Below, in pieces: positions 61,394 through 63,864 of a stretch of 64,000 nt of DNA. The notes beneath the pieces are model-generated. The model was not told where the DNA came from, did no database searches, and worked only from the letters and a program-made list of their open reading frames with translations. Numbering within the stretch: position 1 is the first letter of the stretch; each line of letters starts with the position of its first letter. Origin of the DNA: Kangiella sp. Lineage in GTDB: Bacteria > Pseudomonadota > Gammaproteobacteria > Enterobacterales > Kangiellaceae. The translations under genes and the position numbers were made by a program. Location of the stretch: NCBI RefSeq assembly GCF_014762745.1, contig NZ_JABURJ010000091.1, forward strand, positions 1 to 64,000, given 5' to 3'.

Positions 61394-61587
61394 CCGAGCA
61401 AAACATGAATCAATTGGCATAAATTACTCTTGCCACAATTTGAGGAACGTTTTATGAAAGCGATGGCAGATTGAAAGGAGCTATTTAGTTGTGTAGTCCT
61501 GGCGGGAATCTGTGGTATATTGGCGAGCAACTGGTCAGTCGACCATTCAAGTTATTGATAACTCTCAAAGCATTATCTGGAAGACAC

Positions 61588-62502
61588 ATGAAAATAGGTA
61601 TTTTATCGCGTAACCCACGCCTCTATTCCACCAAAAGATTGGTTCAAGCGGCAGAGGAGCGCGGCCATGAAGCGCAAGTTGTGGATGTGCTTAAGTGCTT
61701 CATGAACATCACTTCTAACCGCCCTACGGTTCACAGTAAAGTTCAAGGCGAAGTTCGCCAACTGGAATTTGATGCCGTGATTCCGCGCATTGGCGCCTCA
61801 GTCACTGCTTACGGTACTGCCGTATTGCGTCAATTTGAGGTGGGTGGCGTTTACTCAGTCAATGAATCGATCGCCATTACGCGTTCGCGCGATAAGCTTC
61901 GTGCCCATCAATTACTAGCTCGTAAAGGCGTTGGCATGCCTATCACCAGTTATGCTCACTCGGTAGAAGCAACTGATGAATTGATTGAATCTGTTGGCGG
62001 TGCACCTTTAATCGTAAAAGTTATCGAAAGTACCCACGGCAATGGTGTGGTCTTAGCAGAAACCAATAAAGCCGCCGAAAGTTTGATCAACGCCTTCCGT
62101 AGCCTTAACGCTGACTTCCTGGTGCAAGAGTTCATAAAAGAAGCCGGTGGTTCGGATATTCGCTGTTTTGTGGTCGGCGACAAAGTGATTGCCGCCATGC
62201 AACGCAGTGCCAAAGAAGGAGAATTCCGTTCCAACCTCCACCGCGGCGGCAGTGCTCAGGTCATCAAACTCAAGCCAGAAGAGCGCGCACTAGCCGTTCG
62301 TGCGGCGAAGGTTATGGGACTGGATGTTGCTGGTGTAGACCTGATTCGTTCAGCGCATGGTCCTCTTGTCATTGAAGTGAACTCATCGCCTGGCCTGGAA
62401 GGCATTGAAAAAGCAACCGGTAAAGACGTTGCTGGCTCAATCATCCAGTTCATTGAAAAAGACTCTTTAAAAGGCCCGAACAAGCCAAAAGGGAAAGGTT
62501 AA
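61588..62502 (+). CDS. rimK: Ribosomal protein S6 glutamate ligase RimK
   Basis: 304 residues from the ATG at 61588 (TGGAAGA upstream); an upstream in-frame start at 61489 lies in the promoter region and is rejected. ATP-grasp ligase: [88 protein letters not shown], and the metal site [22 protein letters not shown]. Adds Glu residues to the C terminus of ribosomal protein S6 and can make poly-glutamate. Followed after 15 bp by the retropepsin-like partner gene. Confidence 0.94.
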
Positions 62503-62517
62503 TTGGAGGAGAACGGC

Positions 62518-62946
62518 ATGAGCAAGATGCGAGTTGGATGGAAAGAAAAAGCCAGGTTGACAGGACTTGGCATTTCAAGCATCAAAGTCAAAGTCGATAC
62601 CGGAGCAAAAACCTCTAGCCTGCACGCCTTTGACATCAAAACCTTCGAGAAAGACGGCAACACCTATGTGTCATTCAAAACCTGTCCTCTACGCCGCCAT
62701 CCCAAGCGAGTCTTCAACTGCGAAGCCGAAATGATCGACTACCGCAAAATCACCAGCTCCAATGGCCAAACCCAGTCACGTTACGTGATACGCACCCCGA
62801 TCACCATTGGTGACCAAACTTGGGATATCGACATCACCCTCGCCAACCGCGACAAGATGCGCTACAAAATGCTGCTTGGCCGCGAAGCCATGGAAAACAT
62901 ACTGGTATCGCCAACAGAAGCCTATTTGCAGAGTCCTAAAGATTAG
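62518..62946 (+). CDS. rimB: RimB-type retropepsin-like protease (Zn_protease family)
   Basis: 142 residues from the ATG at 62518, preceded by GGAGGAG. Core motif KVKVDTGAKTSSLHA is the DTGA active-site loop of pepsin-like proteins in this family. RRHPKRVFNCEAEMIDYRKITSSNGQTQSRYVIRTPI and MLLGREAM are conserved. Pairs with RimK; in Pseudomonas the RimABK proteins together tune glutamation of S6, with RimB counteracting by proteolysis. The earlier annotation of the family as ATP-dependent zinc protease is doubtful given the Asp motif. Confidence 0.88.
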   Translation: MSKMRVGWKEKARLTGLGISSIKVKVDTGAKTSSLHAFDIKTFEKDGNTYVSFKTCPLRRHPKRVFNCEAEMIDYRKITSSNGQTQSRYVIRTPITIGDQTWDIDITLANRDKMRYKMLLGREAMENILVSPTEAYLQSPKD

Positions 62947-62971: not shown

Positions 62972-63052
62972 GTAGATTGGTGGTGCACTCGGGGCAGGCC
63001 AGCGAACCCCCAACAATTCGTAAAGTACGGGCAATTCATGATTTACCCCTAC
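62972..63052. repeat. Two short dispersed elements downstream of rimB
   Basis: 62972-63005 matches (reverse orientation) about 30 bp of the 55-bp palindromic element at 63810-63864, including GGTGGTGCAC and GGGGCAGGCC. 63025-63052 matches the palindrome at 44591-44618 at 24 of 28 positions. Both look like decayed intergenic repeats. The rest of 62947-63158 holds the candidate tRNA/repeat promoter. Confidence 0.6.
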
Positions 63053-63097: not shown

Positions 63098-63147
63098 TTG
63101 CCTTTTTACGACAATTCATATATCTTACGCCGCCTAGATTGCTAGGC
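63098..63147 (+). promoter_or_regulatory. Candidate promoter upstream of the 168-bp repeat array and tRNA-Ser
   Basis: TTGCCT (-35, 63098-63103), 17-bp spacer and TATCTT (-10, 63121-63126). A GCCTAG-ATTG-CTAGGC hairpin (63132-63147) lies at the predicted transcript start. The tRNA-like 5' end of the first repeat is at 63164, so this was plausibly the original tRNA-Ser promoter. Confidence 0.45.
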
Positions 63148-63158
63148 AGTCTAAGTAA

Positions 63159-63662
63159 TTTACGGTGAAGTGCCCGAGTGCTGACTAGTTACGCAGTAAC
63201 TTGAACAGCGGAGTGACACGACGCTGGCCCGAAGGGCGAGAAGCGACAGCTTCGAGTCACGAGCACGCATAAGTGCGACGGGGTAAGTAAGATACAATCA
63301 TCACCCCATAAGAATTGACAAACAGGTTTACGGTGAAGTGTCCGAGCGCTGACTAGTTACGCAGTAACTTGAACAGCGGAGTGACACGACGCTGGCCCGA
63401 AGGGCGAGAAGCGACAGCTTCGAGTCACGAGCACGCATAAGTGCGACGGGGTAAGTAAGATACAATCATCACCCCATAAGAATTGACAAACAGGTTTACG
63501 GTGAAGTGTCCGAGCGCTGACTAGTTACGCAGTAACTTGAACAGCGGAGTGACACGACGCTGGCCCGAAGGGCGAGAAGCGACAGCTTCGAGTCACGAGC
63601 ACGCATAAGTGCGACGGGGTAAGTAAGATACAATCATCACCCCATAAGAATTGACAAACAGG
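63159..63662 (+). repeat. Three 168-bp tandem repeats each starting with a tRNA-Ser 5' fragment
   Basis: Units at 63159-63326, 63327-63494 and 63495-63662. Units 2 and 3 are identical; unit 1 differs from them at two bases in the tRNA-like segment. After TTTAC each unit begins with a ~21-nt copy of the 5' end of tRNA-Ser (acceptor strand through the start of the D arm, one base shorter), then ~147 bp unrelated to the tRNA. That core has several perfect hairpins: GTTAC/GTAAC, GCCC-GAA-GGGC, GAAGC-GACA-GCTTC, GCAC/GTGC and GGGGT/ACCCC. Each unit also has TACAAT (-10-like) about 34 bp before the next tRNA-like start. There is no open frame of note. Confidence 0.95.
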
Positions 63663-63667
63663 TTTAC

Positions 63668-63758
63668 GGTGAAGTGTCCGAGTGGCTGAAGGAGCACGCC
63701 TGGAAAGTGTGTATACGTTAACAGCGTATCGAGGGTTCGAATCCCTCCTTCACCGCCA
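63668..63758 (+). tRNA. tRNA-Ser (anticodon GGA)
   Basis: Class II tRNA of 91 nt including the encoded CCA. Acceptor GGTGAAG pairs with CTTCACC, discriminator G, then CCA (63756-63758). Anticodon stem CACGC/GTGTG with loop CTGGAAA gives anticodon GGA. Long variable arm with ATACG/CGTAT stem; T arm GAGGGTTCGAATCCCTC. Reads UCC/UCU. Its first bases continue the period of the 168-bp repeats. An intrinsic terminator follows 9 bp later. Confidence 0.97.
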
Positions 63759-63767
63759 TACATAAAG

Positions 63768-63790
63768 CGCCCGCATTAGCGGGCGTTTTT
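63768..63790 (+). terminator. Intrinsic terminator of the tRNA-Ser transcript
   Basis: 7-bp GC-rich stem CGCCCGC (63768-63774) with GCGGGCG (63779-63785), ATTA loop, then T5. Confidence 0.92.
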
Positions 63791-63809
63791 GTATGTGGCA
63801 CAAAGAAAT

Positions 63810-63864
63810 GTAGGTTGATGACTCGCTTCTCTGGGCCTGCCCCTTGGGTGCACCACCAACCTAC
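63810..63864. repeat. 55-bp intergenic element with 8-bp terminal inverted repeats
   Basis: GTAGGTTG (63810-63817) and CAACCTAC (63857-63864) are perfect inverted ends. The interior contains GGCCTGCCCC and GTGCACCACC. A partial copy in opposite orientation is at 62972-63005, and a fragment at 53466-53501. It may be a small non-autonomous mobile element or a decayed repeat. Confidence 0.6.

Follow-up and report, generated by a model that had tools for sequence, protein, structure and literature searches.

What does an array of partial tRNA copies do when it lies between a promoter and the intact gene that it copies? We address this question for a locus near the end of a 64,000-nucleotide stretch of Kangiella sp. 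DNA (hereafter the window), which comes from a 2.79-Mb draft assembly of 146 contigs. The only tRNA that ARAGORN calls in the window is tRNA-Ser(GGA), at 63668-63758, and Tandem Repeats Finder reports a tandem array at 63159-63682 with a period of 168, 3.1 copies and 99% matches. An earlier, sequence-only reading had described three 168-bp units in register with the tRNA and a candidate promoter at 63098-63126; both descriptions were borne out, the units occupying 63164-63667. Units 2 and 3 are identical, and unit 1 departs from them at two positions (10 and 16). Upstream of the array lie the genes for RimK (61489-62502) and for a RimB-like endopeptidase (62509-62946), whose score of 133.8 bits falls short of the family cut-off, 200. 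The locus is laid out as follows, the inner coordinates of unit 3 being transferred from the identical unit 2.

63098-63126, + strand: tRNA promoter, with the -35 element TTGCCT at 63098-63103, a 17-nt spacer and the -10 element TATCTT at 63121-63126, then ACGCCGCC
63127-63163, + strand: promoter-side leader with a small hairpin (GCCTAGATTGCTAGGC), ending in TTTAC
63164-63331, + strand: unit 1, with head 63164-63184, insert 63185-63258, resumed tRNA nt 23-32 at 63259-63268, the close of the hairpin, and spacer/leader to 63331
63332-63499, + strand: unit 2, with head 63332-63352, insert 63353-63426, resumed tRNA 63427-63436, and spacer/leader to 63499
63500-63667, + strand: unit 3, with head 63500-63520, insert 63521-63594, resumed tRNA 63595-63604, and spacer/leader to 63667
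63668-63758, + strand: functional tRNA-Ser(GGA) gene (ARAGORN; Rfam RF00005, 54 bits)
63764-63796, + strand: probable intrinsic terminator, read by eye (GCGCCCGC-ATTA-GCGGGCG-TTTTT)

In the terminator scan, the stem at 63764-63796 was listed for just the minus strand. The whole locus is bracketed by a 17-nt inverted repeat (GTAGATTGGTGGTGCAC, 94%) at 62972-62988 and 63848-63864, its arms 859 nt apart, and a similar palindrome adjoins the corresponding locus of another Kangiella genome (G003). At the opposite edge of the window, positions 1-190 hold 10.6 copies of an 18-bp tandem repeat, CCTTGGTCGTCATCACCA.

The units had been described as copies of the first 21 nt or so of tRNA-Ser. That each carries a 5' fragment of the tRNA is correct; its extent was underestimated, because the other side of the D-stem and a strand of the anticodon stem are present as well. 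The head of a unit equals tRNA nt 1-22 minus one base (GGTGAAGTGTCCGAGCGCTGA in the unit vs GGTGAAGTGTCCGAGTGGCTGA in the tRNA), and after an insert of 74 nt the unit picks up the tRNA again at nt 23-32, with one change (ACGAGCACGC vs AGGAGCACGC in the tRNA). We aligned 30 serine units, a selection from those in hand (G005, G008, G243, G362, G386 and others were left out), to their own tRNAs with a long gap made cheap. The gap fell at nt 20-23, with the tRNA resuming afterwards, in 27 of the 30; for the Gamma142, G224 and G442 units the program placed it elsewhere, and by eye the tRNA resumes there as in the others. The D-stem pair 10:26 of the tRNA varies between T:A and G:C from genome to genome, and the units follow suit: position 10 agrees with the unit's own tRNA in 29 of 30 cases (unit 1 of the window is the exception), position 26 in all 27 readable cases. 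Given the insertion in the D-loop and the mirrored 10:26 pair, each unit is, on these alignments, the 5' half of tRNA-Ser(GGA) with a 74-nt predicted hairpin element in its D-loop, and more than a 21-nt fragment. ARAGORN called none of the three units as a tRNA.

Many 5' units also contain an inverted copy of the resumed strand. It is perfect over at least 7 nt in 16 of 29 units (the same 30 less G186), with a mean of 6.4 against 2.2 in shuffled letters; in the window's own units the inverted match is just 4 nt. By eye, the 3' repeats of L066 (E. coli tyrT), L220, L223 and L224 start with the T-stem 5' strand in inverted form (GAACC..), which mirrors the inverted strand copy of many 5' units. 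A second, different hairpin insert was seen inside the unit head at two loci, L047 upstream of the tRNA (G005) and L191 near 1450-1510 (G386).

The insert has relatives on the other side of tRNA genes. Downstream of tRNA genes, partial copies of tRNA 3' ends contain, by eye, an insert in the T-loop (between GGTTCGA and ATCC); such repeats accompany tRNA-Glu, Ser, Val, Asp and Arg in Kangiella and elsewhere, and are found at E. coli tyrT. From 12 of these T-loop inserts, and zero D-loop inserts, we built the RNA model R2. Of the 12 rows, three belong to the window's genome and two to E. coli; another (G360) is the T-loop insert of an upstream copy that has two inserts; the row labelled Ser_G224 sits downstream of tRNA-Arg, not tRNA-Ser. 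When run over the 64 kb at E up to 1, R2 gave three matches, exactly the three units, each over 77 of 77 positions and at 1.7e-10. Since a model of T-loop inserts only detects exactly these units, the 74-nt insert is, by model match, the same kind of element as the rtT T-loop inserts, and the parallel with E. coli tyrT that had been drawn for the array proves closer than claimed.

This kinship has limits. In a first set of 26 loci R2 detected the 5' unit in 21, missing L067, L093, L112, L196 and the Leu locus L238, and these misses include all three Porticoccaceae, Cellvibrionales and Pseudomonadales MAGs. In a second set of 12 it detected six at E up to 0.001, with L204 at 0.021 and L200, L340, L342, L344 and L148 unrecognised. 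The inserts are therefore not all of one kind. The Rfam model RF00391 (RtT) scored 15.2, 14.8 and 14.8 bits on the units, where the curated cut-off is 45; for 3' repeats in relatives it gave 34.7 and 31.3 bits. With the units so far under the cut-off, the insert is linked to the rtT kind of element and not to membership of the Rfam family. Assignment of the unit to a known RNA family was rejected, as no Rfam match over cut-off fell inside the units. Across the window's whole genome R2 found 37 matches, of which some adjoin tRNA genes and many are scattered as head-to-head pairs, whereas the whole window unit gave matches of just 26-31 nt outside the array. The notion that the core of the unit might belong to a mobile element unconnected with the tRNA is thus half supported: the insert has dispersed relatives, and beyond the array the unit as a whole has just those short matches.

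Two further loci join the upstream and downstream repeats. At L189 (tRNA-Ser(GCT)) and L208 (tRNA-Ser(TGA)), one near-complete upstream tRNA copy, anticodon arm included and with the working gene downstream, holds inserts in both its D-loop and its T-loop. R2 recognises both inserts at both loci, the T-loop insert of L189 being one of its training rows. As aligned here, these copies tie the 5' and 3' kinds of repeat together. We also noted, by eye, several hairpin inserts in 3' fragments of 5S rRNA (G037; L022 from ~400 and L029 from ~1200 on the reverse strand), which resemble the tRNA-repeat inserts and lie at precise points of the 5S sequence. A 3'-type repeat with the same core follows a tRNA-like 3' end at 300-620 of L272, again by eye, in a genome that shares only the phylum (G599).

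How widely is the arrangement distributed? Clear units lie upstream of tRNA-Ser(GGA) in 9 of 20 Kangiella genomes; G008 keeps a remnant, and the other 10 have none. There are three units in the window's genome (G000) and in G018, at least two in G009, and one each in G019, G007, G014, G001, G005 and G016, the heads being damaged in the last two. The comparison of tRNA-Ser(GGA) loci in relatives that had been proposed shows that presence and copy number vary among the 20 genomes. The units are dispensable, since half of the genomes do without them and those of G005, G016 and G008 are decayed. In the unit-free G013 and G003, the leader corresponding to 63132-63163 abuts the tRNA directly (3 and 2 differences in 32, respectively), the kind of junction that an exact loss of units between head and gene would leave. 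Thirty tRNA genes were found in the window's genome, with 5' units at Ser(GGA) and at Leu(CAA). The latter, two units of 122 bp (G000:C51:8215-8458; L305, L238), have a different D-loop insert, as do Leu(CAA) units in other Kangiella. Eleven of the 20 Leu loci were inspected and 10 were readable, of which nine have a unit or a decayed unit and one (G006) has none. Upstream of tRNA-Arg(CCG), at L228, an 11-nt copy of the tRNA start lies 45 nt from the gene and has no insert; it is perhaps the remnant of a 5' unit.

When named genomes were scanned for the pattern, at least 117 stretches came up, at least seven of them with tRNA-Ser(GGA) just downstream; an eighth (L148, Porticoccaceae) has two heads at a contig end. 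These tRNA-linked loci belong to two Lacimicrobium species, to Porticoccaceae, Cellvibrionales and Pseudomonadales MAGs (four units in the last of these), to another gammaproteobacterial MAG and to K. taiwanensis, whose strain KT1 has one unit. We then used R1, a model of 14 units. It matched 21 of 369 genomes in a class sample, the window's genome included, and 15 of the 20 others copy the first 20 nt of their own tRNA-Ser upstream of that tRNA with at most one mismatch, so chance is unlikely. In an order sample R1 matched 26 of 394 genomes, namely nine Kangiella and 17 others, of which four were verified at the same threshold and G078 had two mismatches. In a phylum sample it matched 5 of 398, and the sole verified one, G771, shares the order and is already part of the order sample. 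Outside Kangiella the verified cases amount to 19 genomes and 21 loci (12 GGA, 7 GCT and 2 TGA), with heads upstream of their own tRNA-Ser. The head check covered 41 loci: 21 had a head with at most one mismatch in 20, L342 had one with two, and 19 had none. Four of these 19 (L191, L198, L199 and L341) look genuine by eye, with a second head insert, a contig end or a run of Ns, and were not counted. L341 has four tRNA-Ser-like heads at 113-bp spacing (1490-1860; G1074), with another insert, ended by the end of the contig.

R2 recognised the 5' insert in 14 of the 19 verified genomes at E up to 0.001, with G362 at 0.021 and G143, G186, G852 and G980 unrecognised; G852 and G980 have another, shorter insert. 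R1 was built around serine heads, and little can be read into its lack of matches at other tRNAs. In alignment A3 the non-Kangiella units are misaligned in their central part, and the structure of that alignment was therefore used for finding matches only.

We next consider whether the units are constrained. The heads of G018 and G007 do not differ (0%) and their inserts are 3% apart, as against 59% for the leader part of the same units and 49% for fourfold sites of AcnB. The pairs G018/G014 and G007/G014 are similar (insert 4%), and between G000 and G019 the insert differs by 3%, the leader by 20% and fourfold sites by 48%. (The AcnB tree covers 19 of the 20 genomes; G003, in which the gene is split over two contigs, was left out.) Most species pairs have inserts 10-38% apart: 10-25% in the rest of the first group, and 30-38% between the G000/G019 pair and the others. 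A near-unchanged insert beside a diverged leader and diverged synonymous sites suggests selection, as far as such comparisons go. Within the 20 genomes the G007 insert matches only tRNA-Ser(GGA) arrays (E up to 0.001), which lends no support to its having come recently from a near copy elsewhere in the genome; exchange between species could also keep the inserts alike.

In an alignment of 11 units, 98.2% of the predicted-structure cells pair and 7 of 21 pairs are changed on both sides, a figure reached in none of 500 shuffles; all seven covarying pairs lie within one helix, and the structure was derived from the same alignment. Further pair types showed no excess over shuffles (389 of 500). 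The heads match the tRNA of their own genome far better than expected, with 7 mismatches against 67 expected and none of 20,000 shuffles as low, relatedness being left in; within Kangiella alone the match is weaker (361 of 20,000). This test used 29 units, with the Leu row and the second G000 unit dropped and two loci each for G224 and G338. The tRNAs of the two Lacimicrobium species differ at position 3 and each head matches its own, which favours gene conversion.

Taken together, we consider it probable that three partial copies of tRNA-Ser(GGA), each with an rtT-type element in the D-loop, make up a pre-tRNA leader whose head-plus-insert part is under selection at the level of RNA. One transcript would run from the promoter at 63098-63126 through all units and the tRNA, and RNase P would cleave at 63667/63668, setting the units free in the form of structured RNA. 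Through recombination of heads with tRNA copies the number of units would grow and shrink, and the same recombination would keep the heads matched to the gene, with selection on the RNA maintaining head and insert.

Harmless or selfish residence is ranked second to such a selected leader. Here palindromic rtT-type elements, selfish or neutral, would enter the loops of redundant partial tRNA copies and have no cellular function; the cell would tolerate them because RNase P and 3' processing cut the element away from the tRNA. We take this to be a serious contender, though the less probable of the two. The 37 genomic matches, many of them dispersed and paired, agree with it, as do the comparable inserts seen both in the 3' repeats of tRNA-Glu, Val, Asp, Arg and Ser(GCT) and in fragments of 5S rRNA, the patchy and decaying units across the genus, and the different inserts at the same place in tRNA-Leu and in some other genomes. 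Harder to reconcile with it are the species pairs whose insert is near-constant despite a diverged leader and diverged synonymous sites, and the lack of a second near copy of the insert outside the arrays of those genomes. A Y1 transposase (PF01797) occurs in 7 of the 20 genomes, unrelated to the presence of units, and movement by this transposase was rejected for that reason; PF01797 was not found in the unit-bearing G018, G007, G014, G001 and G009. For a recently mobile element of the IS200/IS605 or REP type, near-identical genomic copies elsewhere were sought, and only diverged relatives were seen.

The promoter motif TATCTTAC precedes the tRNA-Ser(GGA) gene at 19 of the 20 Kangiella loci; at the remaining one (G009) the contig has only 284 bases ahead of the tRNA, its first base falling inside the array. 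Wherever both are visible in Kangiella, the units lie between promoter and tRNA, and no terminator-like site was reported by the scan on the + strand inside the units. The proposal of a promoter upstream of the array, and of a long leader, was right as to this order; we infer the transcript itself.

A regulatory role of the leader is conceivable, in which the near-identical head would compete for the 3' acceptor strand of the tRNA and so delay or gate its maturation. In predicted equilibrium folds, the upstream sequence outcompetes the tRNA's own 5' strand for the acceptor 3' strand in 9 of 17 loci; in the window the acceptor 3' strand pairs at 0.97 with upstream sequence and at 0.02 with its own strand. 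The effect is missing from the other eight loci, however, and decoy folding as a general property was rejected on this count. The result for the window also shifts with the ends chosen for the transcript and with the number of units, as three units, in a transcript with slightly altered ends, give an own-strand value of 0.12 and a single unit gives 0.96. Moreover, competing copies produce such a result by themselves, and the folding describes equilibrium only. We regard a decoy as unlikely.

An assembly artefact would concern only the number of units. The assembly is a draft in 146 contigs and units 2 and 3 are identical, but unit 1 differs, the one-contig relatives G019, G007 and G016 also have a unit, and arrays of two to four units occur in other assemblies, which leaves an artefact very improbable. 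The least credible proposal, that TACAAT gives each unit its own promoter and so makes a short RNA or adds to tRNA transcription, can be set aside, for TACAAT is present in both distinct units of the window's genome yet missing from the nine aligned units of other Kangiella genomes (2 of 11 in all), and a simple promoter scan reports no sigma-70-like site inside the units.

More broadly, one may tentatively suppose that Gammaproteobacteria share a class of tRNA-hosted RNA elements, in which an rtT-type module sits in the D- or T-loop of partial tRNA copies that flank working genes on either side; these copies would be matched to the gene and selected, and would act on tRNA maturation or be released as small RNA, E. 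coli rtT being one downstream branch. We hold this wider proposal to be less probable than not. At the level of pattern, rtT, known as an E. coli curiosity, becomes part of a broader, mirror-like arrangement that involves tRNA loops, upstream and downstream positions, several tRNAs and many genomes. The pattern yields clear insertion rules and natural replicates, with genomes that have, lack or have decayed units, and so the role or movement of rtT-type repeats can be tested by comparison and deletion.

We found no description of 5' tRNA repeats or D-loop inserts among the matches listed in the open-access literature, a search in which subscription journals were mostly not included; the available portion of PMC2884548 contains nothing on either. 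A pre-tRNA 3' spacer, 3'ETS-leuZ, has been reported as an sRNA sponge (PMC8166272). The units of the window would likewise be precursor spacer RNA that is set free; unlike 3'ETS-leuZ, the spacer here is 5', built of tRNA copies and known from sequence alone. REP and other palindromic units, which are dispersed hairpin repeats, resemble the insert in that its relatives are dispersed and often paired, whereas the window's unit is tied to a tRNA locus and its tRNA sequence tracks its own gene. The rtT-like 3' repeats of Kangiella (tRNA-Glu, Val, Asp, Arg and Ser) combine the same kind of element with a partial tRNA, in the mirror position and with the mirror half of the tRNA.

The closest parallel is rtT (rttR) at E. 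coli tyrT/tyrV, which is annotated as an ncRNA and whose repeats release a stable small RNA. Like the window, it consists of tandem units that join a fragment of the adjacent tRNA to the same kind of hairpin element (..CCCGAAGGGYGA..GARTA), inserted, by eye, between letters of a tRNA loop (GGTTCGA^ATCC, the caret marking the site). In E. coli, however, the fragment is the 3' end of the tRNA, with the insert in the T-loop and the repeats downstream, whereas in the window it is the 5' half, with the insert in the D-loop and the repeats between promoter and gene. The kind is thus already known via tyrT/rtT; what is new, as far as the open-access literature shows, is the placement 5' of the gene, the use of the D-loop, the copies with two inserts, the match of each head to its own gene and the breadth across Gammaproteobacteria.
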